A DNA stretch of 64,000 bases, from NCBI GenBank assembly GCA_021199255.1, contig JAJQIK010000045.1, positions 124,001-188,000 of the forward strand, read 5' to 3'. This DNA is from Clostridiales bacterium (lineage in GTDB: Bacteria > Bacillota > Clostridia > Lachnospirales > Lachnospiraceae). Numbering within the stretch: the first letter of the stretch is position 1; the number at the start of each line of letters is the position of its first letter. The notes beneath the pieces were generated by a model. It was given only the letters and a program-made list of their open reading frames with translations, did not search any database and was not told the origin of the DNA. Positions 14,218-43,541 of this stretch are shown here, piece by piece. Made by a program: the position numbers and the translations under genes.

Positions 14218-14237
14218 GATCGAAGGAATGGGAGATT

Positions 14238-14384
14238 AGTGTGAAAAATCACACTGATGTGCTGATTTTTCACACTCAAATTTGTGCCGGAGCGTCACAA
14301 ATTTGTCTGATGGCAGACGAGAAACCGCCTTCGCGGATTTCTCGCCGCCGCTTCGCAACAAGTTGCTCAGAAATGGAGATTAGT
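14238..14384 (+). repeat. Multi-hairpin repeat element, copy A (before galT)
   Basis: First of three copies of a ~145-bp element. Hairpin 1: AGTGTGAAAAATCA (14238-14251) pairs perfectly with 14263-14276. Hairpin 2: CAAATTTGTG pairs with CACAAATTTG. Hairpin 3: CGAGAAA-CGC with GCG-TTTCTCG around CTTC. Hairpin 4: GCAAC with GTTGC. It ends in ATGGAGATTAGT, whose GGAG (14375-14378) is the ribosome binding site of galT. GGAGATTAGT also flanks the left side (14231-14240), giving a 10-base direct repeat around the element. Confidence 0.85.
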
Positions 14385-15902
14385 ATGATTCAGGAAAATA
14401 TTAAAAAGCTGGTGCAGTATGGTTTAAATACCGGATTGATTGAGCCGGAGGATAAGATTTATACAACCAACAGGCTGTTAGAGCTGTTTCAGTTAGACGA
14501 ACTGGAAGAGGGCGGCGAAGAGGTTGCCATGGCTGAGGAAGAGTTAGAGGCCGTTCTTGGTGAAATGATGGATTATGCCTATGAAAAGGGCATTATGGCG
14601 GAGAATAGTATCGTATATCGGGATCTCTTTGATACGAAGATTATGAGTATGCTGGTGCCGAGACCCAGCGAGGTGATCCGTAAATTTCATGATCTGTATG
14701 CCGAGAGCCCTAAAAAGGCTACCGAGTATTTCTATCAATTAAGCCAGGACACGGATTATATCAGAAGATACCGCATTAAGAAGGATCAGAAGTGGATTGC
14801 GCCGACCAAATATGGGGATTTGGATATCACCATTAATTTATCTAAGCCGGAGAAAGATCCTAAGGCTATCGCCGCGGCCAAAAACGCGAAACAGAGCGGA
14901 TATCCTAAATGTCTGCTGTGTATCGAGAACGAGGGCTATGCAGGGAGGGTTAATCACCCCGCAAGACAGAACCACAGGATTATTCCGGTTACCATCAATG
15001 GAAGCCGGTGGGGATTCCAGTATTCTCCTTATGTTTATTATAATGAGCATTGTATTGTGTTTAACTCAGAGCATATCCCCATGAAGATTGAGCATGATAC
15101 CTTCTGTAAATTGTTTGATTTCGTGAAACAGTTTCCTCATTACTTCGTGGGCTCCAATGCCGATCTGCCTATTGTGGGCGGTTCTATTCTGAGCCACGAC
15201 CATTTTCAGGGCGGACATTATGAGTTTGCCATGGCCAAAGCGCCGGTGGAGAGAACCTTTACAGTCTCTGGATTTGAAGATGTGGACGCGGGCATTGTAA
15301 ACTGGCCTATGTCTGTTATCCGTATTGCGTCCAAGGATACGGACAGACTGATTGCCCTTGCAGATGTGATTCTGAATGAGTGGAGAGGTTATACGGACGA
15401 GGCGGCCTTTATCCTTGCAGAGACAGACGGAGAGCCGCATAATACTATTACCCCCATTGCAAGGAAACGCGGAGACAAGTACGAGCTGGATTTAGTGCTT
15501 CGTAATAATATCACCACGGAGGAGCACCCTTTGGGAGTCTATCACCCCCATGCGAAGCTGCATCATATTAAGAAAGAAAATATTGGTCTGATTGAAGTCA
15601 TGGGACTTGCGGTGCTTCCCGCCAGATTAAAGGGAGAGATGGAACAGCTTGCGGAGGCGATTCTGTCCGGCGCGGATATCCGTCAAGACGAGACGTTGGA
15701 GAAGCATGCCGATTGGGTGGAGGAGTTTTTACCCTCCTATCAGGACGTGAATCGAGATAATATTATGGATATTCTGCATAAAGAAATAGGAGACGTATTT
15801 ATGCAGGTCTTGGAGGACGCGGGCGTTTATAAGAGAACGGCGGAAGGCCAGAAAGCCTTTGATCGGTTTACGGCGTCCCTCCTTTCCACACTGCGGGAGT
15901 AA
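14385..15902 (+). CDS. galT: Galactose-1-phosphate uridylyltransferase (class II)
   Basis: Exchanges UMP between UDP-glucose and galactose-1-phosphate in the Leloir pathway. 505 residues, the long Gram-positive class II form. Visible landmarks are NAKQSGYPKCLLCIENEGYAGR, the central SHDHFQGGHYEFAM region with the HxH pair, and GVYHPHAKLHHIKKENIGLIEVMG near the C-terminus. The start is the ATG at 14385, six bases after GGAG. An in-frame extension to a GTG at 14241 would translate the repeat element and is rejected. Probably cotranscribed with galK. The first strings given are partial excerpts of longer conserved blocks. Confidence 0.94.
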   Translation: MIQENIKKLVQYGLNTGLIEPEDKIYTTNRLLELFQLDELEEGGEEVAMAEEELEAVLGEMMDYAYEKGIMAENSIVYRDLFDTKIMSMLVPRPSEVIRKFHDLYAESPKKATEYFYQLSQDTDYIRRYRIKKDQKWIAPTKYGDLDITINLSKPEKDPKAIAAAKNAKQSGYPKCLLCIENEGYAGRVNHPARQNHRIIPVTINGSRWGFQYSPYVYYNEHCIVFNSEHIPMKIEHDTFCKLFDFVKQFPHYFVGSNADLPIVGGSILSHDHFQGGHYEFAMAKAPVERTFTVSGFEDVDAGIVNWPMSVIRIASKDTDRLIALADVILNEWRGYTDEAAFILAETDGEPHNTITPIARKRGDKYELDLVLRNNITTEEHPLGVYHPHAKLHHIKKENIGLIEVMGLAVLPARLKGEMEQLAEAILSGADIRQDETLEKHADWVEEFLPSYQDVNRDNIMDILHKEIGDVFMQVLEDAGVYKRTAEGQKAFDRFTASLLSTLRE

Positions 15903-16080
15903 TCCTTGCGGACACTCTGTATCTATGTAAACAGAGGGACTCGCTCTGCCCTCTGAAAAGAGGGCTAACCGTCCACCGTCTTGTGGCTTCCATTTATGAT
16001 GATAGCATAACTCGACAGAATTTTTTACCATTACTATATGATTTCAGTATTTTTTTATTGGTCTTGTTATCAGGTGTTAT

Positions 16081-16228
16081 AGTGTGAAAAATCACACTGA
16101 TGTGCTGATTTTTCATACGGCTATTTGTTTCTGAACGAAAGCAAATAGCCCTGATGGCAGACGAGAAACCGCCTTCGCGGATTTCTCGTCGCCGCTTCGC
16201 AACAAGTTGCTCAGAAATGGAGATTACT
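16081..16228 (+). repeat. Multi-hairpin repeat element, copy B (no gene downstream)
   Basis: Second copy. Hairpin 1 matches copy A except for one change in the right arm (CATAC for CACAC) that leaves a G-U pair. Hairpin 2 has a quite different sequence, GGCTATTTG with CAAATAGCC, but again pairs perfectly. Hairpin 3 is GACGAGAAA with TTTCTCGTC. The end reads ATGGAGATTACT. No ORF starts after it, so here the terminal GGAG serves no gene. Confidence 0.85.
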
Positions 16229-16282
16229 ATTTCATATCAGCCGTATTTATCCAATCGAAGTATGGAACCTTTATAGAAATGA

Positions 16283-16395
16283 GGCGGAATCTTGAGATTC
16301 CGCCTTTAGACGCGTTACAGATAACGCGTAGACCGGATAGGGCGGTTGTTGACAACTGTTTGGCTAAGGCTTAAATAGGGAAGCCGCTATCCGTT
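16283..16395. terminator. Cluster of three hairpins between convergent genes
   Basis: GGCGGAATC (16283-16291) pairs with GATTCCGCC (16296-16304), followed by TTT. ACGCGTTA (16310-16317) pairs with TAACGCGT (16322-16329). CGGATAGGGCGG (16334-16345) pairs with a bulge with CCGCTATCCG near 16383-16392, enclosing GTTGACAAC. The first hairpin could be a bidirectional terminator for galT and the XRE gene, but three in a row is more than termination needs. Confidence 0.4.
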
Positions 16396-16427
16396 AGAAG
16401 TGCGATATATGACGTTTGTAAATCGGG

Positions 16428-16775
16428 CTATAAATCTTCCTCTATGTTCATCATACTACAAAGGAAATTATAGCAATCGCCTTGTTGCCGATGATTCATT
16501 TTTTGATAGATAGCGATAAGACGCCGGTATTTTTTCAGGTAATGCATATTGTTAGCCAGAAAATAATCCGCATTGAGACGTTCTTCAGATAAATACAGAA
16601 TATAATCGGTAGAGACATGAAAAAAGAGAGATAAATCTTTTAAAAGAGCAGCGTCAGGGACGCTGGTTTCGCTTTCGATTTTGCTCAAGCTGGTCTGATT
16701 GATGCCAAGTTGCTTGGCCAGAGCCTGTTGTGTTAATTTCTTTTCTAATCGAAGTTCCTTAATTCTTGTTTTCAT
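16428..16775 (-). CDS. XRE family helix-turn-helix regulator
   Basis: 115 residues. HTH at residues 3-57: IKELRLEKKLTQQALAKQLG, then INQTSLSKIESETSVPD, the standard Cro/CI fold. The C-terminal half is a short helical tail (YFLANNMHYLKKYRRLIAIY) that may dimerise. No ligand domain. It stands alone, convergent with galT and divergent from the radical SAM gene, with a 425-base A/T-rich region in front that may carry its operator. Target unknown. Confidence 0.82.
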   Translation of the reverse strand: MKTRIKELRLEKKLTQQALAKQLGINQTSLSKIESETSVPDAALLKDLSLFFHVSTDYILYLSEERLNADYFLANNMHYLKKYRRLIAIYQKMNHRQQGDCYNFLCSMMNIEEDL

Positions 16776-17199
16776 TTACATACCCTTTTCACCATTGTAG
16801 GCGATATCCGAGATAAAATTATTCCAATTTTTAATAAGAATATTCTGGATAGAATATTTTCTCGTTAAATTTTCAAAAAGGCCATAAAAATACAATATAT
16901 AGTATGAAAATAAATGTATCATACCATATATAGATATTATGCAATTCATTTAATGAGAGGATAAAGCGAAGAGGATATTTTACAAACCGTTAACTGATAT
17001 TATAGCATAGTAAAGATCGGATCAAAACCAGAAATGTTATGGAAAGCTTATGGAAAGTTCTGAAGTTCAATGATTGTGGATTGTTACGCAACATAATATA
17101 ATAGTAATGGAAACAGACCCGCATGGATTTTTACGCCATAACATGGGAGAAAAGAAGGAGTAAGTCCGCCGGTGGTTGCGGAGCTTTGGAATATGGAAA
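16776..17199. other. A/T-rich divergent intergenic region
   Basis: No ORF supported. It contains an interrupted inverted repeat, ATATATAGTATG (16895-16906) with CATACCATATAT (16920-16931), 11 of 12 matching, and AGAATATTCT near 16840-16850, both candidate operators for the XRE protein. A TATAAT at 17097-17102 is a plausible -10 for the radical SAM gene, with only TTGTGG at the -35 position. Confidence 0.4.
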
Positions 17200-19005
17200 A
17201 TGAAAAAAATATTATTGACGGCCATTAATGCAAAATATATTCACTCGAATCCGGCGCTCTATAGCCTGCGTGCCTATGCGGGCGTCAAAGCCGGGCGGGA
17301 GATTCAGATAGCGGAATATACGATCAATCACCGTAGCGAGGACATTCTCGCGGATCTCTACAGGCATAGCCCGGACATGATAGCCTTTTCCTGTTATATC
17401 TGGAATTGGGAGATGGTGTCTCGCCTGTTGCCGGAGCTGCCTAAGATTCTGCCGGGGATAGAAATCTGGCTGGGCGGGCCGGAGGTTTCCTATGATGCCG
17501 AAGAGCTTTTGAGGCGGTATCCGATGGTGCGGGGTATCATGGTCGGCGAGGGAGAAGAAACCTTTAAGGAGCTGGCGGACGGCGAGATGCCGCTTGAGGA
17601 GATCAGGGGGATTGTATACAGGCAGGGTAAAATCATAAAGACAGATAGGCGGGAGCCGACTGATTTATCCGGGATACCCTTTCTCTATCATCAATTAGAA
17701 CCGTTTGAAAACAGGATTATTTATTATGAGAGCAGCAGAGGCTGCCCTTATCGTTGTAGCTATTGTCTCTCTTCTCTTGATAAAAAGGTACGGCTGCGGT
17801 CAACGGATCTTGTTAAACAGGAATTGCAGTTTTTTCTGGATCGCAGGGTAAAGCAGGTCAAATTTGTGGATAGAACCTTTAATTGCAGCCATGAGCACGC
17901 CATGGAGATATGGCGGTATCTGTTGGAGCATGACAATGGGGTGACGAATTTTCATTTTGAGATCGAAGCGGATCTGATAACAGAGGAGGAATTAGAGCTG
18001 CTGTCCCGGATGCGGCCGGGGCTGGCACAGATGGAAATCGGGGTACAGACCGTGAATCCGGATACATTGCGGGAAATCCGCCGCCATACCGATATGGACA
18101 GGCTCCGGTATGTGGTAGGGCGTATCCGCCAGGGGCATAATATTCATGTGCATTTAGACCTGATCGCAGGGCTTCCTTATGAGGATTATGAGAGCTTCCG
18201 ACACTCCTTCAATGTGGTATATTCCATGAAGCCGGAGCAGCTGCAGTTGGGATTTTTGAAGGTATTGAAGGGCGCGTATATGCATCAGATGGCGGAGGCA
18301 TATGGAATACGGTATCTTGCCGCGCCTCCTTATGAGGTGCTTTCTACCAGATGGCTTCCCTATGATAAAGTACTGTTATTAAAAGAAGTGGAGCAAATGG
18401 TGGAAATATATTATAACAGCAGTCAGTTTGTTTCTGCCGTGCATCTGCTGGAACAGGTATTTCCGGACGCTTTCAGCCTGTATTTGTCCTTGGCGGAATT
18501 TTATCGTGAAAAGGGATATTTTACGCAGGCGCCCGGCCGCAGCTACCGTTATCAGGTGTTGTTTGAGTTTGCCATGACGACGGCTTTGAGCCGGGCGGAG
18601 GCGCTTGTGCGCGAGGTGCTCGTTTATGATCTGTATTTGAGGGAAAATGTAAAGAGCAGGCCTGATTTCGCGCCCCTGCAGGAGCAAAAAGCACAGTATA
18701 AAAAGCAGATACGGGCGTTTTATGAAAAAGAAGCGGCGGAAGGAACGTATCTTGCGGGCTATGGGAATTATGACAGCAGGCAGTTGGCCAGGATGACGCA
18801 TATAGAACTGTATAGCTATCCGGTGTGGGAAACAGGGCTCCGATCGGATACGAAAGCCTTAGAGACCCCTGCCGCGGTTTTGTTTGATTACCAGAGGCGG
18901 GAACCTTTAACTTATCAGGCAAGGACAGTAGTATTGACGGATTTTGGAAGGGAATCCGGGGAAAGGGCTTCTCAGGGTCAATCTTTCGAAAAGGAGCAAA
19001 TATGA
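17200..19005 (+). CDS. B12-binding domain radical SAM protein (DUF4080 type)
   Basis: About 601 residues. N-terminal cobalamin-binding Rossmann domain (MKKILLTAINAKYIHSN, then VGEGEETFKEL), radical SAM core with the cluster motif GCPYRCSYC (CxxxCxxC) near residue 190, and a C-terminal DUF4080-like domain. Members of this family probably act as methyltransferases or related radical enzymes; the substrate is unknown. I chose the ATG at 17200 to match the family start; a TTG at 17176 adds 8 unlike residues. Its stop overlaps the next gene by 4 bases (ATGA), so the exonuclease is translationally coupled. Confidence 0.85.
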   Translation: MKKILLTAINAKYIHSNPALYSLRAYAGVKAGREIQIAEYTINHRSEDILADLYRHSPDMIAFSCYIWNWEMVSRLLPELPKILPGIEIWLGGPEVSYDAEELLRRYPMVRGIMVGEGEETFKELADGEMPLEEIRGIVYRQGKIIKTDRREPTDLSGIPFLYHQLEPFENRIIYYESSRGCPYRCSYCLSSLDKKVRLRSTDLVKQELQFFLDRRVKQVKFVDRTFNCSHEHAMEIWRYLLEHDNGVTNFHFEIEADLITEEELELLSRMRPGLAQMEIGVQTVNPDTLREIRRHTDMDRLRYVVGRIRQGHNIHVHLDLIAGLPYEDYESFRHSFNVVYSMKPEQLQLGFLKVLKGAYMHQMAEAYGIRYLAAPPYEVLSTRWLPYDKVLLLKEVEQMVEIYYNSSQFVSAVHLLEQVFPDAFSLYLSLAEFYREKGYFTQAPGRSYRYQVLFEFAMTTALSRAEALVREVLVYDLYLRENVKSRPDFAPLQEQKAQYKKQIRAFYEKEAAEGTYLAGYGNYDSRQLARMTHIELYSYPVWETGLRSDTKALETPAAVLFDYQRREPLTYQARTVVLTDFGRESGERASQGQSFEKEQI

Positions 19006-19718
19006 CAGACTGCTATATATGTATTGATTTAGAGACCACCGGCCTGGAGCCGAAGAAGGATCAAATCATAGAAATCGGCGCGGTGAAGGTAGAGCATAAT
19101 ACCATCGTAGACACATGGGAATCTCTGATTAATCCGGGCAGAAAGCTGGAGGAGAGAATTGTGGCTCTTACGGGGATTTGCGACCGGCAGCTTGCGGACG
19201 CGCCGCAAATCACAGAAATATTGCCGGAGTTTCTTTCGTTTGCCGGGGAAGATGTTCTTCTGGGGCACAGCGTCCTGTTTGATTATTCTTTTCTGAAAAA
19301 AGCGGCGGTTAATGAAAAACGCAGCTTTGAGAGAAAGGGCATCGATACCTTGAAAATTGCCCGCAAGTATCTGAAGGAACTGGAGAGTCGCAGCTTAGGC
19401 TCTTTGTGTCAATATTATGGGATTGCCCATCGCGCGCACAGGGCGCTGGAGGATGCCGGAGCGACTGTGGCGCTATATCGGAAGCTGGCGGAATGTTTCT
19501 ATGAAAAGGAGGAAGCAGAGGGAGATAAGAGCCTGTTTCGCCCGAAACCTTTGATTTATCAGGTGAAGCGCGATATGCCAATCACAATTCCTCAGAAGGA
19601 ACAGTTATATAAGCTGGCGGACAAGCATAAACTGATATTAGATTATGAGATCGACAAGCTCACCCGCAGCGAAGCTAGCAGGAAGATTGATCGGCTTCTT
19701 GCAGAATACGGACGATAG
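19002..19718 (+). CDS. DnaQ-like 3'-5' exonuclease (DEDDh)
   Basis: 238 residues. Exo I motif CIDLETTGLEP near residue 8, Exo II GHSVLFDYSFLKKA near residue 88, Exo III HRAHRALEDAGATVALY near residue 143, so all metal and catalytic residues are present. The C-terminal ~45 residues (LYKLADKHKLILDYEIDKLT) form a small helical domain with basic residues. Such stand-alone epsilon-like proteins proofread or trim DNA or RNA. The start overlaps the radical SAM stop. Its 3' end overlaps the convergent gene by 44 bases. Confidence 0.87.
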   Translation: MTDCYICIDLETTGLEPKKDQIIEIGAVKVEHNTIVDTWESLINPGRKLEERIVALTGICDRQLADAPQITEILPEFLSFAGEDVLLGHSVLFDYSFLKKAAVNEKRSFERKGIDTLKIARKYLKELESRSLGSLCQYYGIAHRAHRALEDAGATVALYRKLAECFYEKEEAEGDKSLFRPKPLIYQVKRDMPITIPQKEQLYKLADKHKLILDYEIDKLTRSEASRKIDRLLAEYGR

Positions 19719-20292
19719 TTTTCTGCATGGCTGAATTTAGGGTTTCCGCGATGGGATAGAGACCGCCGATTTTTTCGGGGGTATTCTGCGCCTTGTAAAT
19801 TTCGCAGAGCAGGCGATAGGTGCCGCTTACGTCGGTGCCGGTGGAGACTGCAAATTCCAATAGCTGACAGGCCTCCTCCGGATAACCGGCGTCGTAGAGC
19901 GCCTGCGCCCATTGCTGCAGCGTTCTCACCAAAAGGGTATAGTTCTGGTCATAGGAGGTGAGAAGGTCAATATTGGGAGCGCCGTAGCGGAGCTTAAGCT
20001 CGGTGTTGCTGATGCCGGTGAAATTGACAATGGGCGCTTCGCTGAGCGTTTGAATAATTTGTTTGTAATCATCGACCTTGGGGATTTCGTTTAGAAGCTC
20101 CATGGGGAATATTTCCATGGGAAGCTTAATATAGTTGAGATTGTCCAGGGACTTCCGCCTGGTATTGTTGGCCAGCCGTTCCTGCTCCCAGTAGTCCCGC
20201 TGCGTCAGGGCGTCCGTTTTTTTGTTTTTGGAAAGAGTTATGGCGATGACCAGGGCGAGAATGAGAGTGCTTGCAAAAATGATGAAATTCAT
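19675..20292 (-). CDS. Single-pass membrane protein with helical repeat-like domain, unknown
   Basis: 205 residues. Hydrophobic helix at residues 2-21 (MNFIIFASTLILALVIAITL) followed by charged sequence and a helical C-terminal half (ALYDAGYPEEACQLLEFAV, then TYRLLCEIYKAQNTPEKI) that resembles a TPR pair. I recognise no family. The 3' end overlaps the convergent exonuclease gene, so the two messages are complementary over 44 bases. It is divergent from a 31-residue membrane peptide gene. Confidence 0.65.
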   Translation of the reverse strand: MNFIIFASTLILALVIAITLSKNKKTDALTQRDYWEQERLANNTRRKSLDNLNYIKLPMEIFPMELLNEIPKVDDYKQIIQTLSEAPIVNFTGISNTELKLRYGAPNIDLLTSYDQNYTLLVRTLQQWAQALYDAGYPEEACQLLEFAVSTGTDVSGTYRLLCEIYKAQNTPEKIGGLYPIAETLNSAMQKTIVRILQEADQSSC

Positions 20293-20330
20293 ATATAATA
20301 TCCTTTCAGTAAGTGAGGAGGCTTCACTTT

Positions 20331-20426
20331 ATGTTTAATAGGAAAAAAAGAAAAATTATTTCTTCTGTTATTATTATTATTGTCGTATTAGCAATGGTTA
20401 TTCCGCTTCTGGTATCGGCATTATAG
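20331..20426 (+). CDS. 31-residue basic membrane peptide
   Basis: Short ORF starting ATG at 20331 with a perfect GAGGAGG at 20315-20321, nine bases upstream, and ending TAG at 20424-20426. The peptide has a basic head (NRKKRKIISS) and one hydrophobic helix (VIIIIVVLAMVIPLLVSAL), a typical small inner-membrane protein. The strong ribosome binding site, the helix layout and its isolated position argue that it is translated. Partner unknown. VanW follows 95 bases later. Confidence 0.6.
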   Translation: MFNRKKRKIISSVIIIIVVLAMVIPLLVSAL

Positions 20427-20521
20427 GAGCGGGATCCTGTTTTGTGTGGTAGTAAGCGGATATTTTTTTATTCTACCACAAATTTTCCGAATGGGCAATT
20501 TGACACGGAGAGAGGAGATTT

Positions 20522-22054
20522 ATGCGAAGATGGTTTATGGTACTTCCGATGGCCATGATGACAGCGATGCTGATGGCGATGCCGGTCTGCGCACAGGAAG
20601 CCGTAATTGAATCAGGTATTTATGTGAATGATATCAATCTGTCCGGCATGACGGCGGAAGAAGCGAAGGACAGGATAGAGGATTATGTAGCGTCCTTTGG
20701 CGACACGGAGATTACTCTGTATGCCCTCGAGGGGGCTGCAATCGTTACTACGGCGGCCGATCTGGGACTGTCGTGGGGCAATGAGGAAATTCTGGACGAG
20801 GCCGCGGGCTTCGGCAGAGACGGAGATATCCTTCAGTGTTACAAGGAGCTGAAGGATCTGGAATATAAGAACAAAGTATATCGGGTAAGCTTTGATTTCG
20901 ACCAAAGCAAAATAGAAGCCTTGATTGAGGAAAACGCCGGGCAGTATAATCAGGAGGCCGTCAACGCAACCCTGACCAAAACGGACGCGGGGTTTGAAAT
21001 CACGGAAGGGCAGGCGGGTATTGTCATTGACACGCAGGCTTCCGTGGCTGCGGTATATGAATATCTGACGGAGAATTTTAATGGCGGGGCATGCAGCGTC
21101 GATCTGGTGTCTGTTGTAGACGAACCTCAGGGAAACGCAGAGGATCTGGCCAAGATCAAAGATGTGCTGGGCACTTATACGACCAGTTATTCTACTTCCG
21201 GCAGCTCCCGGAGCGCTAATGTGGCTAACGGCTGCAGCCTGATTAACGGAACCACATTATATCCGGGGGAGGAATTTTCCGCTTATGAGGCGGTGGCGCC
21301 TTTTACGGAGGCCAACGGATATTATATGGCAGGCTCTTATTTAAACGGTCAGGTGGTGGACAGTCTTGGCGGCGGTATCTGTCAGGTGTCCACGACGTTA
21401 TATAATGCCGTTCTGTTATCGGAGCTGGAGGTGACCGAGCGTTATAATCATTCTATGATCGTCTCTTATGTAGACCCTTCTGCGGACGCCGCGATCGCGG
21501 AATCCTCAGGCAAGGACTTTAAGTTTAAGAATAATACGGATTATCCTATTTATATCGAAGGATATACTACCTCTGATAAGCACATTACATTTACGATCTA
21601 CGGCGTGGAGAGCAGAGACAGCAGCCGTCAGGTGGAGTATGAAAGCGTGGTATTGGAGACTATGGTGCCGGATACGGAGGTGATCTATACAGACGCTTCC
21701 CAGCCGGTGGGCTATTGTGTGGTACAGTCCGCCCATATCGGATATAAGGCGCAGCTTTGGAAGATTGTGAAGGAAAATGGGGTAGAGGTCAGCAGAGAGC
21801 AGGTTAACAGCAGTACCTATATGAAGGTTCCCAGAAGCGCAACGGTTGGCATTGCGACCGAAGATCCGGGAGCGTATGAAGCGATTATGGCGGCAGTAGC
21901 CACTAACAGCGTAGATCAGGTAAAGGCGGTGGCAGGCAGTTATCAGGCAGCGGCAGATGCTGCTGCGGCTCAGGCTGCGGCGGAGGCGGCCGCTCAGGAA
22001 GAAGCGGAGCTGCCGGTGCAGGAAACGGCACAGGAGATGCTGCAGGCAGAGTAA
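20522..22054 (+). CDS. VanW family secreted/anchored protein
   Basis: 510 residues. N-terminal signal sequence (MVLPMAMMTAMLMAMPVCAQ, cleavage likely after the Ala of CAQ). Residues ~30-200 look like a peptidoglycan-binding-type domain often placed before VanW (GIYVNDINLSGMTAEEAKDR). The VanW domain follows at about 210-370 (LYPGEEFSAYEAVAPFTEAN, then SLGGGICQVSTTLYNAVL). The tail is Ala/Glu-rich. VanW is found in some vancomycin resistance clusters but its activity is unknown; no van ligases are near, so this is a general cell-envelope protein. Confidence 0.87.
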   Translation: MRRWFMVLPMAMMTAMLMAMPVCAQEAVIESGIYVNDINLSGMTAEEAKDRIEDYVASFGDTEITLYALEGAAIVTTAADLGLSWGNEEILDEAAGFGRDGDILQCYKELKDLEYKNKVYRVSFDFDQSKIEALIEENAGQYNQEAVNATLTKTDAGFEITEGQAGIVIDTQASVAAVYEYLTENFNGGACSVDLVSVVDEPQGNAEDLAKIKDVLGTYTTSYSTSGSSRSANVANGCSLINGTTLYPGEEFSAYEAVAPFTEANGYYMAGSYLNGQVVDSLGGGICQVSTTLYNAVLLSELEVTERYNHSMIVSYVDPSADAAIAESSGKDFKFKNNTDYPIYIEGYTTSDKHITFTIYGVESRDSSRQVEYESVVLETMVPDTEVIYTDASQPVGYCVVQSAHIGYKAQLWKIVKENGVEVSREQVNSSTYMKVPRSATVGIATEDPGAYEAIMAAVATNSVDQVKAVAGSYQAAADAAAAQAAAEAAAQEEAELPVQETAQEMLQAE

Positions 22055-22086
22055 CGATATGGCATCAATACAGTTGGGCATAGGGC

Positions 22087-23070: not shown

Positions 23071-23088
23071 AAAGGCATGGTAAATGTT

Positions 23089-24740: not shown

Positions 24741-25234
24741 TGCATATTATTTTACATCAGCCGGAGATACCGGCGAATACGGGAAATATAGGCCGTACCT
24801 GCGTAGCTACGGGTACGAGCCTGCATCTGATAGAGCCTTTGGGCTTTCGGCTGGATGAGAAATCTATTAAACGCGCGGGCATGGACTACTGGGAACATCT
24901 GAATGTGACCCGTTATATGAATTACCGGGAGTTTCAGGACAGGCATCCGGGCGCGAGAATCTGGATGGCGACCACCAAGGCGAAGCGGGTCTATACAGAG
25001 GCGGCCTTTGAAGCGGACGATTATATTATGTTTGGAAAAGAAAGCGGGGGTATTCCGGAAGAGATTCTGGTGGAAAATGAAGAGACCTGTATTCGGATTC
25101 CGATGCTGGATCAAATCAGGTCTCTCAACCTGTCTAATTCTGTAGCCATAGTGCTGTATGAGGCGCTGCGGCAGAATCATTTTTCCAATATGCAGTTGGA
25201 AGGCCAACTGCACCGGCTGCACTGGCGGGAGTGA
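24740..25234 (+). CDS. trmL: tRNA (cytidine/uridine-34-2'-O)-methyltransferase TrmL
   Basis: 164-residue SPOUT methyltransferase that 2'-O-methylates the wobble base of leucine tRNAs. The knot motifs are all present: PEIPANTGNIGRTCVATG, LIEPLGFRL, MFGKESGGIPEEI and RIPMLDQIRSLNLSNSVAIV (the last with the SAM-loop). Length is normal. Its ATG overlaps the last A of the aminotransferase stop, making it the end of the HypE-like/Lrp/aminotransferase transcript. The sensor kinase gene converges 33 bases on. Confidence 0.94.
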   Translation: MHIILHQPEIPANTGNIGRTCVATGTSLHLIEPLGFRLDEKSIKRAGMDYWEHLNVTRYMNYREFQDRHPGARIWMATTKAKRVYTEAAFEADDYIMFGKESGGIPEEILVENEETCIRIPMLDQIRSLNLSNSVAIVLYEALRQNHFSNMQLEGQLHRLHWRE

Positions 25235-25267
25235 CCTGCGTTTACCCTGATAAGGGGCGGCGCGGCC

Positions 25268-26692
25268 TCAGTCCTCGTCTTCCATACCGGATTTTGGCAG
25301 GGAGAAAATAAATTCCGTGCCAACGCCCTCTGTGCTGATGACGTTAATATGTTCACCATGGGATCGGATGATCTCTTTCGTAATGGAGAGACCAAGGCCG
25401 GTTCCTTTTTTATCCTTTCCACGGGAGAGATCTGATTTATAAAAGCGATCCCAGATTAATTTCAAGTCGTCCTTCGGAATACCGATGCCGTTATCCTTTA
25501 CACTGACAAAAATTTTGCTGTGCTTTTCTGTGGTTTCCAGCTTGATGACAGAGTTATGGTGGCTGAATTTGATGGCGTTGTCCAACAGGTTATAAAGCAC
25601 CTGCTGAATCTTATCCATATCTGCCACCACGTACATTTCGTCGCCGGTCAGCACCAGCTCGATGGCAATCATTTTTTTGCGGCAGGTTCCCTCGAAGGAG
25701 GCCGCCACATTGCGGATGATGGTGTTAATGTCAAAGTCGGTTTTGTTTAACATCATACCCTTAGTATTCAGATTGTTCAGCGTCAGCAGGCTGTTAGTCA
25801 GCTTGGTCAGCCGCTCTGTTTCGTTCAGCACGATGGTCAGATACTTTTCATGCATTTCCGGCGGTATGGTGCCGTCTATCATGGCTTCCAGATATCCCTT
25901 GATGGAGGTAAGGGGTGAACGGAAATCATGGGACACATTCGCCACAAACTTTTTCTGGTCGTCCTCCGAGCGGGCGATCTCGCTTGCCATATAAGACAGG
26001 GTAGCGGCCAGATAACCCATCTCATCTTCGCTTTCCACCGTAAATTCATAGTGCATATTGCCGCTGGCATACTGCTCCGTCGCCACCGTGATTTTGCGGA
26101 GGGGAATATAAACAATCTCCGTAAAGAAAATCAGAATAATCAGCGACAGCAGGAAAAGAATGAGAAGCATAATATAAGAAATATTTAGCAGTTGGTCGGT
26201 TTCGGTCTGGATGCTGCTTATGGAGGAATGGATTACCACATAGCCTTTTACCTTGTAGTCAGAGGTAATAGGGGCGAATACGCTCAGCATATTTTCGTCA
26301 AAGGTATCGAAAAAGTTGCCCACCGTATAGTACGAGCCGGCGGTAATGGTAGGGTCAAAGTTCTCCACGACGACTTCATTTTCCACATCAACCGGCGAGG
26401 AGGAATCCAGAATCATACGGCCGGACGGATTGATAATCCAGATGGTGGCATTCAGATAAGTGTCCAGCGCGTCTAACTGCGCCTTAACCGTTTCCAGGGA
26501 AGTCTCGTTATTGTACAAATCCGACGCGTAGGTGTTGGCGATCAGGGTTGCTTCTTTGTAGAGTGAATCGGCCGTTTCCTTTTTCAGGTGATCCATGGTC
26601 ATATTGGATACAAAGGTAGCCACGACCACGAAGCCGAACAGACCAAAGATAATATAGGCAAGTATGAATTTGAGATACAGGGTTTTTCTCAT
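25268..26692 (-). CDS. Sensor histidine kinase (HAMP-HisKA-HATPase)
   Basis: 474 residues. First membrane helix at ~9-29, an extracytoplasmic domain of about 130 residues, second helix at ~165-190, HAMP, then the H box FVANVSHDFRSPLTSIKGYL, N box LYNLLDNAIKFS, and G boxes DNGIGIP and GTGLGLSI. All catalytic motifs are intact. It follows its response regulator by 27 bases and forms a PhoB/WalR-like pair. Stimulus unknown; no CHASE/Cache motif could be named with certainty in the outer domain. Confidence 0.92.
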   Translation of the reverse strand: MRKTLYLKFILAYIIFGLFGFVVVATFVSNMTMDHLKKETADSLYKEATLIANTYASDLYNNETSLETVKAQLDALDTYLNATIWIINPSGRMILDSSSPVDVENEVVVENFDPTITAGSYYTVGNFFDTFDENMLSVFAPITSDYKVKGYVVIHSSISSIQTETDQLLNISYIMLLILFLLSLIILIFFTEIVYIPLRKITVATEQYASGNMHYEFTVESEDEMGYLAATLSYMASEIARSEDDQKKFVANVSHDFRSPLTSIKGYLEAMIDGTIPPEMHEKYLTIVLNETERLTKLTNSLLTLNNLNTKGMMLNKTDFDINTIIRNVAASFEGTCRKKMIAIELVLTGDEMYVVADMDKIQQVLYNLLDNAIKFSHHNSVIKLETTEKHSKIFVSVKDNGIGIPKDDLKLIWDRFYKSDLSRGKDKKGTGLGLSITKEIIRSHGEHINVISTEGVGTEFIFSLPKSGMEDED

Positions 26693-26719
26693 AGGGTTAA
26701 AACTCTTTTCTATACATAT

Positions 26720-27421
26720 TTACGGCTTGGATTCAAATTTATATCCGATGCCCCAGATGGTGGCGATACGCCATTTCTCGTGATCATTGATTTTTTCCCG
26801 CAGACGCTTGATGTGTACGTCCACAGTTCTGGTGTCTCCGATATATTCATATCCCCAGATCTGATCCAGAAGCTGCTCCCGCGTAAATACATGGTTGGGG
26901 GAGGAGGCGAGGAAATAGAGAAGCTCCAGCTCCTTGGGCGGCATTTCGACGGTTTTGCCCATGTAGATTACGGAATAATTGGTCTGATTGATAATCAGAT
27001 CCGGGTATTCCACGCTTTTGACATCGGAGGACTGGGACTGCGCCGCCGCAGGCTTATATCGACGGAGCACGGCTTTCACACGGGCTACCAGCTCTTTTGA
27101 GTCAAAGGGCTTTTCCATATAGTCGTCCGCCCCCAGCTCTAAGCCCAGGACCTTATCAAATACTTCTCCCTTGGCGGAGAGCATAATAATGGGGAGAGTG
27201 GATTTGGAGCGGACTTCCCGGCATACCTGATAACCGTCAATGCCCGGCAGCATCAGATCCAACAGCATCAGGTTGGGCTCGAAGCTGTCCACCGCGGTCA
27301 GGGCGGATTCGCCGTCGTTGACAATCATGGTTTCGAAGCACTCCTTAGTCAAATAGAGAGAGATCAGCTCCGCGATATTGTTGTCGTCATCTACAATTAA
27401 AATTTTCTGTTTGCTTACCAT
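26720..27421 (-). CDS. OmpR/PhoB family response regulator
   Basis: 233 residues. Receiver with ILIVDDDNNI, phospho-acceptor in LMLLDLMLPGIDGYQ, switch in IIMLSAKG and YMEKPFD. C-terminal winged helix with ELLYFLASSPNHVFTREQLL and TRTVDVHIKRLREKI. It is the partner of the kinase directly downstream. mutS2 lies 74 bases upstream in the same direction, so the three may be cotranscribed. DNA targets are unknown. Confidence 0.93.
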   Translation of the reverse strand: MVSKQKILIVDDDNNIAELISLYLTKECFETMIVNDGESALTAVDSFEPNLMLLDLMLPGIDGYQVCREVRSKSTLPIIMLSAKGEVFDKVLGLELGADDYMEKPFDSKELVARVKAVLRRYKPAAAQSQSSDVKSVEYPDLIINQTNYSVIYMGKTVEMPPKELELLYFLASSPNHVFTREQLLDQIWGYEYIGDTRTVDVHIKRLREKINDHEKWRIATIWGIGYKFESKP

Positions 27422-27495
27422 AGCTTCATCACACCTTTCTGCTGTGTTCTTCCTGCTTTTGCCGATAGAGGCGGCCGGAAGCGCTGGAAGAACTG

Positions 27496-29883
27496 TTAAT
27501 CCTTAAATTCTGCAATCGTAACGCCTGCGTCGCCTTCCCCAAACTCGCCCTGGCGGTAGCTTTTAATCAGCTTATTCTTGCGCAGGTAATTGCGAACGGC
27601 GTTCCGCAAGGCGCCGGTTCCCTTTCCATGCACAATGCGGACGCTGGGCAGATGCGCCAGATAGGCGTCGTCCAGATATTTATCCAGCTCGGCGAGCGCC
27701 TCGTCCACGGTCTTGCCAAGCAGATTAATTTCTGTGGAGACGGAATAGGATTTGGACATCTTAAGACTGCCGGAGGAAGTGCGCTTCATGCGCTTGTCTG
27801 TGGTAATCGTCTCTTCTTCTAACAAAACCAGATCCTCCAGGGAGACCTGGGAGCGGATAATACCGCACTGTACAAAAAGCCTGCCGTTTCTGTCCGGAAG
27901 GGAGCTGACGGTGCCCTTAAGCCCCATGGAGACTATTTTAACGCTGTCGCCCTGCTTAATCTGATTGGGCTTTAGCAGCTTATGGGAGGGCTTGTCGTTC
28001 TTTAAGGAAAGCTTTTCGTTTTTTTCGGAAATCTTATCCCGTACCTTCTGGCGGGATTTCTCTAAGTCCTTGATGGAAGAGGAAGCGCCCGCTTTCTGGA
28101 AGGCGCGGATGGTTTCGTCCGCCACTTCCTTGGCGTTTTGCAAAATTTCCCGTGCTTCCTCATTGGCTTCCCGCAGAATCCGTTCGCGGGAACGGTCGAT
28201 CTTTTCCTGTTTGGATTCCAATTGTTCTTTTAAGGCCTTGATTTCCTGCTTATAGGACGCTATTTCCAGCCGTTCCTTTTCGATGGTCATCCGGCTGTTT
28301 TCCAGATCTGTTAACAGATCCTCGAAGCTTTCTTTATCTTCTGTGATATGCTTCCTGGCATCTTCTATAATATAATCCGGCAGTCCCAGCTTGGAGGAGA
28401 TGGCAAAAGCGTTGCTCTTGCCGGGAACGCCGATCAAAAGCCGGTAGGTGGGGCGCAGAGTTTCCAAGTCAAATTCGCAGCAGGAATTTTCCACATGGTC
28501 GGTAGAAAGGGCATAAACCTTTAACTCGCTGTAATGGGTGGTCGCCATAGTGCGGATTCCCCGGTTATGCAGATAATCTAGTATCGAGACGGCAAGCGCC
28601 GCGCCCTCGGTGGGATCTGTTCCGGCGCCCAGTTCATCAAAGAGACAAAGGGAATCCTCGTCTGCTTCCTGTAGGAGAGACACAATATTGACCATATGGG
28701 AGGAAAAGGTACTGAGGCTCTGTTCAATACTCTGCTCGTCGCCAATGTCCGCATACACTTCCCGGAAAACAGACAATTCCGAGCGGTCTGCCGCGGGAAT
28801 ATGCAGTCCGGACTGCCCCATGAGAGTCAATAAGCCTACGGTTTTCAGAGAGACTGTCTTGCCCCCGGTATTTGGCCCGGTAATGACCAGAAGATCAAAG
28901 TCGCTTCCCAGCCGGATATCGATGGGGACGACCTTTTTCTGATCCAAAAGAGGATGCCGCCCCTGTCTGATCTTAATCTGGTGATTCAGATTAAAAACTG
29001 GCATGGAAGCATTCTGTTCCAGAGCCAGAGCGGCTTTGGCGAAAATAAAATCAAGTTGGGTCATGGCCTTCTGATTATCAGACAGCGTCTTTGTATAGGG
29101 AGCGGTTCGGGCGCTTAGGTCGGCCAGAATCACTTCAATTTCTTCCTGCTCCTGTAAGGAAAGCTCTTTTAACTGATTGTTCAGATTCACCACAGCGGTG
29201 GGCTCGATGAAAAAAGTAGAGCCGCTGGAGGATTGGTCGTGAATCATGCCCGGAACCTGCCCCTTGTATTCGGATTTCACCGGAATACAGTAACGGTCAT
29301 TGCGCATGGTCACAACAGCGTCCTGCAGATAAGCGCGGCAGGAGCCGTTAATCATGGAGGTCAGTTGGGAATGAATCCTGTCGTTGGCAATCGTCATGCT
29401 GCGGCGAATATGTTTTAAGGTGGGACTGGCGTCGTCCGCGATCTCTTCCTCGGATAAAATACATCTGCGGATTTCGTTAGCTAACGGGGTAAGAGGCTCT
29501 AAAAGATCAAAATAGGCCTCCAGAGAATCGCCGGGAATATCCTCCCGTTCTTTGCGCCCGTAGGCCTTAATGCGGTTTACATTCTCAAGAAAGGCGGCAA
29601 TGCGCAATAACTCTGCAACAGAGAGTACGCTGCCTACCTCCAGGGAACGGATGCATAATCCCAGCTCCCTGTTGCCTCCGAAGGAAGTAGAGCCCTTGCG
29701 GAAAAGATATCCCAGAGCGTCGGCGGTTTCGGTCTGCGCCTGCGTAATCGCTTCCAGATCCGTCATGGGGCGCAGGGCGGCAGCAGCCTTTTTGCCCGGT
29801 TCAGAGGTGGCTTTGTCCGTCAGTCTGTCAATGATTTTATGATATTCTAAAACCTGTAATACTTTGCTGTTCATCTTGGTCAA
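27496..29883 (-). CDS. mutS2: MutS2 (ribosome-collision/anti-recombination ATPase with Smr nuclease)
   Basis: 795 residues, full length. Walker A GPNTGGKTVSLKTVG, Walker B region LCLFDELGAGTDPTEGAALA, a Lys/Glu-rich coiled stretch at ~510-640 (clamp and linker), KOW-like segment, and a C-terminal Smr domain with VRIVHGKGTGALRNAV. MutS2 suppresses homologous recombination in some species and in Bacillus acts on collided ribosomes through its Smr domain. Upstream gene of the two-component pair. Confidence 0.95.
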   Translation of the reverse strand: MTKMNSKVLQVLEYHKIIDRLTDKATSEPGKKAAAALRPMTDLEAITQAQTETADALGYLFRKGSTSFGGNRELGLCIRSLEVGSVLSVAELLRIAAFLENVNRIKAYGRKEREDIPGDSLEAYFDLLEPLTPLANEIRRCILSEEEIADDASPTLKHIRRSMTIANDRIHSQLTSMINGSCRAYLQDAVVTMRNDRYCIPVKSEYKGQVPGMIHDQSSSGSTFFIEPTAVVNLNNQLKELSLQEQEEIEVILADLSARTAPYTKTLSDNQKAMTQLDFIFAKAALALEQNASMPVFNLNHQIKIRQGRHPLLDQKKVVPIDIRLGSDFDLLVITGPNTGGKTVSLKTVGLLTLMGQSGLHIPAADRSELSVFREVYADIGDEQSIEQSLSTFSSHMVNIVSLLQEADEDSLCLFDELGAGTDPTEGAALAVSILDYLHNRGIRTMATTHYSELKVYALSTDHVENSCCEFDLETLRPTYRLLIGVPGKSNAFAISSKLGLPDYIIEDARKHITEDKESFEDLLTDLENSRMTIEKERLEIASYKQEIKALKEQLESKQEKIDRSRERILREANEEAREILQNAKEVADETIRAFQKAGASSSIKDLEKSRQKVRDKISEKNEKLSLKNDKPSHKLLKPNQIKQGDSVKIVSMGLKGTVSSLPDRNGRLFVQCGIIRSQVSLEDLVLLEEETITTDKRMKRTSSGSLKMSKSYSVSTEINLLGKTVDEALAELDKYLDDAYLAHLPSVRIVHGKGTGALRNAVRNYLRKNKLIKSYRQGEFGEGDAGVTIAEFKD

Positions 29884-29967
29884 TTCCTTCTATCAGAATG
29901 GATCGCATCGTCTTGTCCATACGAAATTATTCTATCATAAACAGCCGGGAATTACTATAAGTCTTTC

Positions 29968-29996
29968 TTTACAAGGATTGGGAAAACAGATATACT
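29968..29996 (+). promoter_or_regulatory. Promoter of the HtrA-like gene
   Basis: TTTACA at 29968-29973, 17 bases, TATACT at 29991-29996. The predicted transcript begins near 30003, giving a leader of about 45 bases before the ATG at 30049. Confidence 0.7.
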
Positions 29997-30048
29997 GAAA
30001 AAGTAATGCGGCCGTCTGCAAAACCAGATGGCGGGAAGGCGCGCTTTT

Positions 30049-31404
30049 ATGGAAAATCAGGAGAAAGAATACAGACCCGCGGAAACGGAACCGGCCGGGC
30101 AGCAGGCAGAATATACTCCTTCTGTCCAGTCGGATTTTTTGCGGGAAAAAATAAAGCAAAAGCCGGTTAATAAGAAGAAGCTGCTTCGAAGAACACTGAT
30201 TACCGTTATTATGGCGGTAGTGTTTGGACTGGTAGCGTGCATTACATTCCTGGTACTGGAGCCGGTAATCAGCAATCGGCTTTATCCGGAGGAAGAGGCA
30301 CAGGAGGTAGAATTTCCGGAGGAAACGGTTACGGAGGAAATGAAGCCGGAGGATATGCTGGTGCAGGATGAGGCTGTGGAGGAACCGGTGCAGGCGGAGC
30401 TGGAAGACGAGCAGATTGAAGAGCTGCTTTCCCAGGTACAGTTTGAATTAGAGGATTATCAGACGCTTTATACGGAACTGGCTCAACTGGCCACGACGGC
30501 AAGCCGGTCGGTGGTAACGGTAACAGGCGTGACCTCCGATGTGGACTGGTTTAACGATATCTATGAAAACGCGGAGTCGGCGTCCGGCGTGATTGTGGCC
30601 AATAACGGTAAATCTATTCTGATATTGGTTAGCGCCGGCACTTTACACGGAGCGGACAGTATTGTGGTGACCTTCTGCGATCAGGCTCAGGTGGAGGCGG
30701 AGATCGTACAACGGGATCAAACCACGGGGCTTGCGGTTTTGTCAGTATCGCTTCTATCCATAGAGGAAGAGACGATGGATGTGATCGATATCGCCGAGCT
30801 GGGGAGCTCGAACAGCAATAATCTCCTGGGAACGCCAGTGATTGCGCTGGGAAGCCCGTTAGGGACAAGCGGTTCAGTCTGTTATGGCGTGATAACCTCC
30901 ACGGGAACCGTGATCGACCAGCCCGATTCTGCCTATAAACTGATTACAACCGATATTTATGGGAGCCGTAACGCTACCGGCGTGCTGGTGAATCTGAAGG
31001 GTATGGTGGTGGGCGTCATAGATAGCGCAAATGCCGACGGCGACATGGAAAATCTGCTGCGGGCTTATGGTATTTCGGAGTTGAAGAAAACCATAGAAAA
31101 AATGTCCAATAATCAGGAACGCGCCTATATGGGTGTGCACGGGGCGGACGTACCGCAGGCGGCGGTCAGCGAATCCGATATGCCGGCCGGCGCTTACATT
31201 AAGGAGATCGAGATGGATTCGCCCGCGATGGCGGCGGGAATCCAGAGCGGAGATGTGGTAACGCAGGTGGACGGAGTCCCTATCACCACTTATGCCGAGC
31301 TGCTGAATATGTTGTATAATGCCGCGCCGGAGGATGTGATGACGATAACTCTGGTTCGGCAGGGCAGGGAAATGAACGTGGAAGTAACGCTGGGGACATA
31401 CTGA
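30049..31404 (+). CDS. HtrA/DegP-like PDZ membrane protein with a degenerate protease domain
   Basis: 451 residues from the ATG at 30049, which has GGGAAGG ten bases upstream. A cytoplasmic basic segment, one membrane helix at ~55-80, an acidic linker (~85-135), a trypsin-like domain (~150-340) and a PDZ domain (~355-450; AYIKEIEMDSPAMAAGIQSG). Compared with the HtrA pattern, all three catalytic positions are changed: His is Gly197 (SAGTLHGAD), Asp is Gly227 (TTGLAVL) and Ser is Ala309 (SRNATGVLVN). So the fold is kept but peptidase activity is not expected. It may act as a scaffold or chaperone at the membrane. yhaM-like gene follows after 36 bases. Confidence 0.85.
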   Translation: MENQEKEYRPAETEPAGQQAEYTPSVQSDFLREKIKQKPVNKKKLLRRTLITVIMAVVFGLVACITFLVLEPVISNRLYPEEEAQEVEFPEETVTEEMKPEDMLVQDEAVEEPVQAELEDEQIEELLSQVQFELEDYQTLYTELAQLATTASRSVVTVTGVTSDVDWFNDIYENAESASGVIVANNGKSILILVSAGTLHGADSIVVTFCDQAQVEAEIVQRDQTTGLAVLSVSLLSIEEETMDVIDIAELGSSNSNNLLGTPVIALGSPLGTSGSVCYGVITSTGTVIDQPDSAYKLITTDIYGSRNATGVLVNLKGMVVGVIDSANADGDMENLLRAYGISELKKTIEKMSNNQERAYMGVHGADVPQAAVSESDMPAGAYIKEIEMDSPAMAAGIQSGDVVTQVDGVPITTYAELLNMLYNAAPEDVMTITLVRQGREMNVEVTLGTY

Positions 31405-31440
31405 CGTCAGGTGCATAACCGTTTCGGAATGGAGGAAATG

Positions 31441-32385
31441 ATGAAATATATTAAGGATTATAAAGAGGGCGACAGAGTATTTGATATCTATCTGTGCAAA
31501 CATAAGCAGTCGGCGGTTACAAAAAATGGAAAGCCCTATGACAACGTAATTTTACAGGATAAGACGGGTACTGTGGACGCTAAAATCTGGGACCCCAACA
31601 GCGCCGGGATCGATGATTTTGATACGCTGGATTATATTGAAGTATACGGTGAAGTGACAAGCTTTCAGAACGCGCGGCAGATCAATGTCAAGCGTATCCG
31701 CAAGTGCTGTGAGGGGGAATACGATCCCGCGGATTATTTGCCGGTCAGCAGATTCCCGATTGAGGATATGATGAAGGAATTGCTGGGATATATTGACAGT
31801 ATAGAAAATCCTTATCTGAATAGACTTTTGCAGATGTTTTTTGTAGAGGATCAGGAATTTATAAGAGCCTTTCAGCAGTCCTCTGCGGCAAAGACGGTGC
31901 ATCACGGCTTTGTGGGAGGTCTTTTGCAGCATACTCTGGCAGTAACCAGATTATGCGACTATTATTGCACACAGTACCCGATTTTAAAGAGAGATCTTTT
32001 GCTGACGGCAGCGATCTGCCATGACATTGGCAAAACCAGAGAGCTGTCCCTTTTTCCGGAAAACGATTATACGGACGACGGGCAGTTTCTGGGGCATATC
32101 GTGATCGGAAGTGAAATGCTGGGAGAGAAAATCAGCGCTATTTCCGGATTCCCTAAAGTGCTGGCGAATGAATTAAGGCACTGTATCTTAGCGCACCACG
32201 GGGAATTGGAGTTTGGCTCTCCCAAGAAGCCTGCGATTGTGGAGGCGCAGGCCTTGTCTTTTGCCGATAATACGGACGCCAAAATACAGACCTTTACGGA
32301 GTTGCTGGAGGAACATACGGAGTCAGGCTGGCTTGGCTATAATCGGCTGCTGGAATCTAATGTGACTGCGACGAAGATGGAATAG
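31441..32385 (+). CDS. YhaM-like 3'-5' exoribonuclease (OB fold + HD domain)
   Basis: About 315 residues. N-terminal OB-fold nucleic-acid domain (VILQDKTGTVDAKIWDP, YGEVTSFQNARQINVKRI) and an HD hydrolase domain with VHHGFVGGLLQHTLAV, the HD pair in ICHDIGKTREL, LGHIVIGSEM and LAHHGELEFGSP. This matches B. subtilis YhaM, a metal-dependent 3'-5' exoribonuclease involved in mRNA turnover. Start at ATG 31441, five bases after GGAGG; the ATG at 31438 is too near. Cotranscribed with the HtrA-like gene. Confidence 0.88.
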   Translation: MKYIKDYKEGDRVFDIYLCKHKQSAVTKNGKPYDNVILQDKTGTVDAKIWDPNSAGIDDFDTLDYIEVYGEVTSFQNARQINVKRIRKCCEGEYDPADYLPVSRFPIEDMMKELLGYIDSIENPYLNRLLQMFFVEDQEFIRAFQQSSAAKTVHHGFVGGLLQHTLAVTRLCDYYCTQYPILKRDLLLTAAICHDIGKTRELSLFPENDYTDDGQFLGHIVIGSEMLGEKISAISGFPKVLANELRHCILAHHGELEFGSPKKPAIVEAQALSFADNTDAKIQTFTELLEEHTESGWLGYNRLLESNVTATKME

Positions 32386-32434
32386 GTATAAATCAGCAAT
32401 TTGAGCCAGGGTAGCCTGCTGCCCTGACATGGAT

Positions 32435-32577
32435 AGTATGAAAAATCACACAGATGTGCTGATTTTTCGCACTCAAATTTGTGCCGGAGCGTCACAAATT
32501 TGTCTGATGGCAGAAGAGAAACCGCCTTCGCGGATTTCTCTTCGCCCCGTCGCTAACGCTCCGGAATGGAGATTAGT
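32435..32577 (+). repeat. Multi-hairpin repeat element, copy C (before rlmD)
   Basis: Third copy. Hairpin 1 arms differ at two positions, one giving a G-T wobble. Hairpin 2 equals that in copy A. Hairpin 3 is GAAGAGAAA with TTTCTCTTC, a compensatory C-G to A-T change relative to copy B. Hairpin 4 has a wholly different sequence (CCG..GC with GC..CGG around TAAC). It ends ATGGAGATTAGT, and GGAG at 32568-32571 is the ribosome binding site of rlmD. Confidence 0.85.
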
Positions 32578-43473: not shown

Positions 43474-43541
43474 AATTTAATGCTCACTTTTATTGCTCAC
43501 CTGTGTTATAATAGGTGAGCAATAAAAGTGAGCATTAAATT
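43474..43541. promoter_or_regulatory. 29-bp perfect palindrome with -10 box in the loop
   Basis: Bases 43474-43502 are the exact inverse complement of 43513-43541, with a ten-base loop GTGTTATAAT whose TATAAT (43507-43512) is a -10 element. Each arm holds two direct copies of GTGAGCA (or its complement) 13 bases apart, so four binding half-sites surround the promoter. No good -35 is seen. The arrangement suggests tight autoregulation of the gene starting at 43561. Confidence 0.75.

Follow-up and report, generated by a model that had tools for sequence, protein, structure and literature searches.

A pseudoknotted, dispersed repeat family at gene starts in Lachnospiraceae, with signs of mobility

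Dispersed structured repeats are already known in bacteria. Among them, bcr1 of Bacillus cereus has an RNA fold, and the BOX repeats of Streptococcus pneumoniae are modular, being assembled from exchangeable hairpin units; to our knowledge, BOX shows neither a pseudoknot nor targeting of the spacer between a Shine-Dalgarno sequence (SD) and a start codon. Here we describe an element of four hairpins and a pseudoknot that occurs three times in a 64,000-nt stretch of DNA (the window) from contig JAJQIK010000045.1, part of a Lachnospiraceae genome of 3.08 Mb (99% complete), and that in most of its copies lies in precisely this spacer. It shares exchangeable hairpins with BOX, from which we set it apart by general description and not by comparison.

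In the published account, bcr1 and further B. cereus repeats are 100-400 bp long, intergenic, present in tens of copies per genome (39 on average for bcr1) and mobile in character (PMC6542083). Our element resembles them as a short intergenic repeat in many copies that appears to be mobile, whereas its SD-like flanks, its pseudoknot, its targeting of the SD-start spacer and its hosts are different; for repeats of the bcr1 type, the same text names a TTTAT motif, expected at the ends, and no hosts beyond the B. cereus group (PMC6542083). The separation is one of description, not of sequence: the flanks of our element that we inspected are mostly SD-like. Repetitive extragenic palindromic (REP) sequences and bacterial interspersed mosaic elements are also short palindromic repeats in many copies, but they are described as single hairpins of 20-40 bp, tagged GTAG or CGTC and tied to Y1 transposases (RAYT) (PMC3733652), in contrast to four hairpins with a pseudoknot in a genome with no Y1 match. 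The mobile or repeat candidates of the GC-IGR survey, such as MRSC-65-2, have covarying structure and dozens of copies per genome and are thought to be selfish (PMC11109978). MRSC-65-2 is one long stem, unlike our element, and one of that survey's 250 candidates, with which no comparison was made, could be the same element (PMC11109978). In the open-access literature we recognized no description of it, which is not proof that none exists, and found no dispersed structured repeat that targets the interval separating ribosome-binding site from start codon, oriented with the gene and equipped with its own SD.

A widespread family with a covarying fold

The initial annotation of the window reported three copies (here A, B, and C). 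A cross-species covariance model recovers all three on the forward strand (14232-14387, 16075-16231, and 32429-32580; 157, 146, and 136 bits, respectively) and gives no further sense match in the window at E ≤ 0.01, the remaining three matches at that cut-off being antisense overlaps. BLAST with copy A yields 53 matches in the genome, the seven weakest of them antisense; model R1, a covariance model built from 33 own-genome copies (alignment A2), yields 86 at E ≤ 0.01, or 80 without six antisense overlaps, and the weakest of these 80 are uncertain. Seven pairs of copies are adjacent, head to tail. Across the order, R1 finds the element in 13 out of 295 genomes spanning two families (E ≤ 1e-8), and across the genus the broader model R2 finds it in 66 out of 77 (E ≤ 1e-5). 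Most of the genomes are metagenome-assembled genomes (MAGs), and no genome search evaluates more than a set number of candidates (40 for each of the 77 in the R2 search). Named carriers among the matches listed belong to Lachnospiraceae or are other bacteria of the gut; several bear the title Acetatifactor, and some are isolates. Carrier loci were chosen by an exact hairpin-1 pattern, so the conservation of hairpin 1 is biased; 29 additional loci from the search with this pattern were left out as copies.

That no named family matches, as the initial annotation supposed, agrees with Rfam 15, which gives no match over the element at gathering score in the window or in ten loci with divergent copies. 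Under a permissive cut-off, a match to RNAI overlaps copy B (17.4 bits against a gathering score of 47; E = 3.6), which we take as chance. A plasmid search returned no match to the element, and the hairpin-1 pattern has none in IMG/VR. Two records titled "Bacteriophage sp." do carry the element (loci L396 and L397; MT836788 and MT838414). The second looks like misfiled bacterial chromosomal DNA, with genes that by eye resemble those for MBOAT, DHHW, and Tex proteins, and on these grounds we set aside carriage by phages or plasmids.

Pairing was quantified in alignment A4, which holds 102 copies from 99 hand-chosen loci (74 of the 87 loci L046-L132 and 25 of the 80 loci L288-L367). The loci omitted include fragments at contig ends, copies interrupted by long insertions, and internally deleted copies, so that its percentages of pairing are biased upward. 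The fit of A4 was guided by the nested structure and took no account of the pseudoknot. Of the cells in its 52 pairs, 96.4% are paired; shuffling lowers this to 79.9%, and no slid control exceeds 51.2%. Covariation is 0.394, against 0.128 shuffled and at most 0.050 slid. Two-sided changes are seen in 40 of the 52 pairs, including all 16 pairs of hairpin 3, and the weakest helix, hairpin 4, is still 83.5% paired. The family is therefore not one of three copies with stem changes at chance level, there being about 80 matches in the genome, and there is strong support for the earlier proposal that selection acts on a single-strand fold. Nested-pair cells comprise 4207 Watson-Crick, 128 G.U, 63 A.C, and 86 other combinations; the excess of G.U over A.C suggests that it is the sense strand that folds.

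The loop of hairpin 2 pairs with the strand immediately 5′ of the SD near the 3′ end of the element, forming a pseudoknot. Absent from the alignment model, it covaries too: In A4 it is 95.1% paired, with a covariation of 0.297 against 0.138 shuffled, and its two-sided changes (four of seven pairs) are not above shuffling (126 of 500). Among 83 copies taken from the first 86 rows of alignment A3, representing 58 distinct combinations, pairing runs between loop and strand are 6.98 within a copy and 5.68 when permuted (0 of 10,000). Examples of the two strands are CCGGAGCGT/ACGCTCCGG, TCTGAGCGA/TCGCTCAGA, TCAGAGC/GCTCTGA, and CCGCAGGCA/TGCCTGCGG; in a few copies only two to three positions pair. 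Little variation is seen in the unpaired bases that link hairpin 2 to hairpin 3 (T 95%, G 84%, A 96%, T 94%), in a bulged A of hairpin 3 (99%), or in two G's of the SD (98-99%). Other parts vary by module. Hairpins are exchanged or added between copies; many own-genome copies have an additional AATCC..GGATT hairpin between hairpins 1 and 2, copies from other genomes have inserts in loops 2 and 3, and in the second of the two host families the interior of hairpin 1 changes with compensation.

Position at gene starts and signs of mobility

The element ends in ...GAATGGAG, which is followed by a spacer and then by the start codon, and copies stand in a single orientation relative to genes. Out of 179 copies, 131 have enough flank to be scored, and 106 of these are followed by an open reading frame (ORF) of at least 60 aa, compared with 31% of random positions at the same loci under the same generous window. 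The 25 own-genome downstream ORFs that we read are mixed and share no common pathway. NCBIfam names five downstream genes, galT, rlmD, gatB, purN, and D-aminoacyl-tRNA deacylase, although the gatB fragment, at 160 aa, is under its full-length cut-off. In nested folding, the predicted probability that the SD is unpaired is 0.456, and 0.388 with shuffled upstream sequence (higher in 117 of 170 copies; Wilcoxon P = 4e-8), a small opening effect that would fit a tolerated insertion.

The 5′ end of the element might itself suggest translation. The base ahead of the TGAAA of hairpin 1 is A, G, or T in all 179 TGAAA-anchored copies and never C, which gives NTG; leader peptides of the VKNHTDVLIFH type are common, and the spacing between the host SD and the NTG would suit a start codon, yet no longer frame is kept. 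The initial annotation held that this is not a protein gene, and indeed the gene start has no fixed frame with respect to the leader NTG (43, 64, and 64 of 171 copies). Fifteen copies without the anchor were left out of the count (two from the own-genome set and 13 from the cross-species set), and several of them have other codons at the site without loss of the stem (GTGGGAAAA..TTTTCCCAC, GTGTAAAAAA..TTTTTTACAC). We reject a leader peptide as the main function on the basis of the frames and of these anchorless copies.

Seven copies from two other species were compared with closer relatives, and for three of the seven an empty site is readable there. The copy at L341 (genome G012) is missing in G019, at 92% identity: The empty allele reads AATGGAGAATA followed by ACATG, and the filled one AATGGAGAATA, element..CGGAATGGAGAATGAC, then ATG. 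No host base is lost, and the 11-nt AATGGAGAATA recurs on the other side with a single difference. For L345 (G010), G012, G005, and G019 all have the empty allele, in which CTGGAGATATA is followed by GAGATG; for L342 (G012), the relatives with an empty allele are G019, G005, and G010. At the loci corresponding to two genes downstream from own-genome copies, R2 finds a copy in 0 of 29 relatives for gatB and in 1 of 29 for galT (L238, a weak match immediately ahead of galT); these are the loci retrieved out of 39 and 38 matched, respectively.

The flanks carry a further signal. An SD-like core is present in 152 of the 179 left flanks, and in 124 of the 152 it starts 7-9 nt before the junction. 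An ATG stands immediately 5′ of the core in 63 of 178 left flanks, compared with 36 of 345 other genes, and in 33 of 122 once possible ends of other elements are dropped. We compared the two sides in 150 of the 179 distinct copies (33 groups, from species with at least two copies). The 8-mer that precedes the left junction agrees with the right SD region at 6.06 of 8 positions within a copy and at 5.84 under within-species permutation (z = 4.6; 0 of 5000), and exact 8-mer matches number 17 against 9.7 expected. Other lengths and offsets behave similarly, offset 0 mostly failing, and z is 5.0 without the own genome. Partial own-genome copies keep the 3′ end, contig-end copies aside, and several keep the first bases too; those that keep both ends look like internal hairpin deletions.

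Weighing the explanations

We consider it probable that this is an apparently undescribed, non-autonomous, structure-dependent, pseudoknotted mobile element that targets the spacer between SD and start codon. The element is about 120-190 nt long; covariation shows that its gene-sense strand folds into the four hairpins and the pseudoknot, and most copies occupy the spacer in a single orientation, about 8 nt past the start of the SD. With a 3′ end (AATGGAG) that resembles the target, and with the sequence surrounding the SD tending to be repeated on both sides, insertion would probably be mild, since the downstream gene would retain a properly spaced SD. Presumably an enzyme provided in trans binds the fold, and the 3′ end perhaps pairs with the target SD; the new SD would itself be a target, which would account for the head-to-tail copies. 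A bolder version, which we hold doubtful, is that of a mobile RNA, pseudoknotted and lying between two mRNA start sites, whose SD-like 3′ end recognizes SDs and which is copied into them, thereby spreading across the start sites of a genome and returning an SD to each gene.

Several observations weigh against insertion of a mobile element at SDs. Out of the 131 copies scored, 25 have no following ORF of 60 aa, some standing before ORFs of 43-53 codons, some before a second copy, and some, like copy B, before nothing. An SD-like core is missing from 27 of 179 left flanks. Three of the copies tested (L346, L347, and L343) have no empty site in the closer relatives, the alleles at L052 are not clearly readable, and the repeat at L345 is poor. 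In the own genome alone (40 copies), the flank repeat is mostly not significant, and there the right SD seems to be supplied by the element itself: ATTA is found at the right end of 37 out of 41 copies, compared with 15 out of 41 on the left. Finally, no responsible enzyme emerged from profile searches with RVT_1 and Y1, neither of which is consistently present (DDE families were not searched). At E ≤ 1e-5, RVT_1 is missing in eight of the 14 carriers searched (G006, G034, G182, G329, G043, G286, G005, and G012; several of the 14 are incomplete MAGs), and Y1_Tnp (PF01797) has no match in the 99% complete own genome.

The enzyme searches bear on a special form of the mobile-element reading, a short retroelement of the SINE (short interspersed nuclear element) kind whose RNA a reverse transcriptase would copy into the target, with priming at the SD. 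Much of the evidence suits it: the sense-strand fold with its conserved unpaired bases and G.U balance, a target repeat without visible terminal inverted repeats, and a 3′ end that resembles the target, as the ATG before the SD core indicates. The retained 3′ ends of partial copies also speak for it and made 5′ truncation a strong candidate at first, but many of these copies keep their first bases too, as in internal deletion. RVT_1 occurs in 10 of 20 relatives, among them four of the six chosen as element-poor, and the two reverse transcriptase loci of the own genome look by eye like those of group II intron proteins. RVT_1 is also missing from the eight carriers named above, and we think the retroelement rather unlikely. 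An ordinary miniature inverted-repeat transposable element (MITE), moved by a DDE transposase with an 8-bp duplication and preferring SD sequences by chance, would explain the target repeat of about 8-11 nt; because the ends (GTGTGAAAAATC.. and ..CGCTCCGGAATGGAG) are by inspection not inverted repeats, the orientation relative to genes is single, and fold and pseudoknot are under selection, we judge it improbable. A REP-like repeat, whose hairpins are acted on by a Y1 (IS200/RAYT) transposase, would likewise be intergenic, hairpin-rich, and present in many copies, but with no Y1_Tnp in the own genome or in 12 of 21 genomes overall (nine have it), a single gene-relative orientation, and a repeated target, it is the least credible of the alternatives. 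On the features tested, the element falls outside the Rfam families, the Y1-dependent REP type, and the classical MITEs.

Two other accounts leave mobility to one side or treat it as a means of spread. The element could be a cis-acting regulator of translation, kept for the benefit of the host and spread by recombination or transposition, in which the pseudoknot would sequester a CTC strand otherwise able to pair with the GAG of the SD and so act as an on/off switch. Its constant place immediately before the start codon, the covariation of the SD-adjacent strand with loop 2, and unpaired bases conserved as in ligand- or protein-binding RNAs all argue for this. The lack of a shared theme among the 25 downstream ORFs, the near absence of copies at the gatB and galT loci of relatives, and the existence of head-to-tail copies and of copies without a gene argue the other way, and on balance we find a regulator unlikely. 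Covariation might also arise without selection, through templated correction of quasi-palindromes, a known process in which hairpin arms are copied from each other during replication and can be perfected. It accounts poorly for a loop 2 that covaries with a strand some 80-100 nt away and does not easily explain the conserved unpaired bases, and we think it very improbable.

The copies in the window and what the family may mean

The three copies, all on the forward strand, display most of these features. The initial annotation had not recognized the pseudoknot, the location ahead of start codons, the terminal SD of the element, or the signs of mobility, and had taken stem 4 for a local hairpin. 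Copy A (14239-14384) lies between galK and galT and adjoins the galT ATG at 14385; to its left, a host SD-like GGGAG (14230-14234) can be read from the sequence 8-9 nt ahead of the junction. By fold and alignment, hairpin 1 occupies 14239-14275. Hairpin 2, of the CAAATTTG type, follows at 14277-14305, with the 5′ strand of the pseudoknot in its loop (14287-14293), and hairpin 3 at 14312-14349, with its bulged A at 14315. Hairpin 4 (14355-14366) and the 3′ strand of the pseudoknot (14365-14371) together span 14355-14371, and the GGAG of the 3′-end SD, again read from the sequence, is at 14375-14378, ahead of galT. A 553-aa ORF (14241-15902) starts within copy A and continues in frame through galT, where automatic start calling could lengthen GalT by about 48 residues.

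Copy B (16082-16226) lies 3′ of galT and has no start codon after it, an exception to the rule. Its hairpin 2, of the GGCTATTTG type, is at 16119-16150, with a loop strand (16128-16134) that pairs with 16211-16217, and fold and alignment place hairpin 3 at 16156-16193. Copy C (32436-32577) adjoins the rlmD (rumA) frame, which has a GTG at 32578; an in-frame ATG at 32566, upstream of that GTG, lies inside the copy. Hairpin 2 of copy C (32474-32502) pairs through its loop (CCGGAGC, 32484-32490) with GCTCCGG at 32558-32564. Its hairpin 3, placed by fold and alignment, is at 32509-32546, and a GGAG read from the sequence at 32568-32571 forms the 3′-end SD.

The compensatory changes first reported among these copies hold for stem 2, which is CAAATTTGTG/CACAAATTTG in copies A and C and GGCTATTTG/CAAATAGCC in copy B, and for stem 3, which is GACGAGAAA/TTTCTCGTC in copy B and GAAGAGAAA/TTTCTCTTC in copy C; stem 3 of copy A has a single A.C mismatch. 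Stem 4 had been described as still pairing in copy C despite a wholly different sequence. A local hairpin is found in copies A and B (GCAA/TTGC), but only two GC pairs of it are left in copy C, because loop 2 is the main pairing partner of the 3′ strand (CCGGAGC/GCTCCGG in copy C, TTTCTGA/TCAGAAA in copy B). Copy A looks like a chimera, with a C-type hairpin 2 joined to a B-type 3′ strand.

Three other features of the window lie apart from the family. A Clostridiales-1 RNA (RF01699), a known RNA of unknown function, is at 51706-51864 on the reverse strand (112.6 bits). A perfect 29-nt inverted repeat with a 10-nt loop (AATTTAATGCTCACTTTTATTGCTCACCT) is found at 43474-43541, at the start of an ORF (43528-44982), and GAGCAATAAAAC recurs at 44730-44764. 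An ORF at 61978-63615 contains an Asp/Ser-rich tandem repeat (63046-63483) in units of about 36-42 nt (GATGATGATTCCAGCGTCAG).

For annotators, frames that are open through some copies into the gene mean that start sites may be miscalled. If the reading that we favor is true, a parasite would be able to settle at a highly sensitive spot of the gene with little harm, and Lachnospiraceae would gain from it a source of new 5′ untranslated regions and translation levels. It would also pose the question of an enzyme that recognizes a pseudoknotted RNA or single strand together with an SD sequence.

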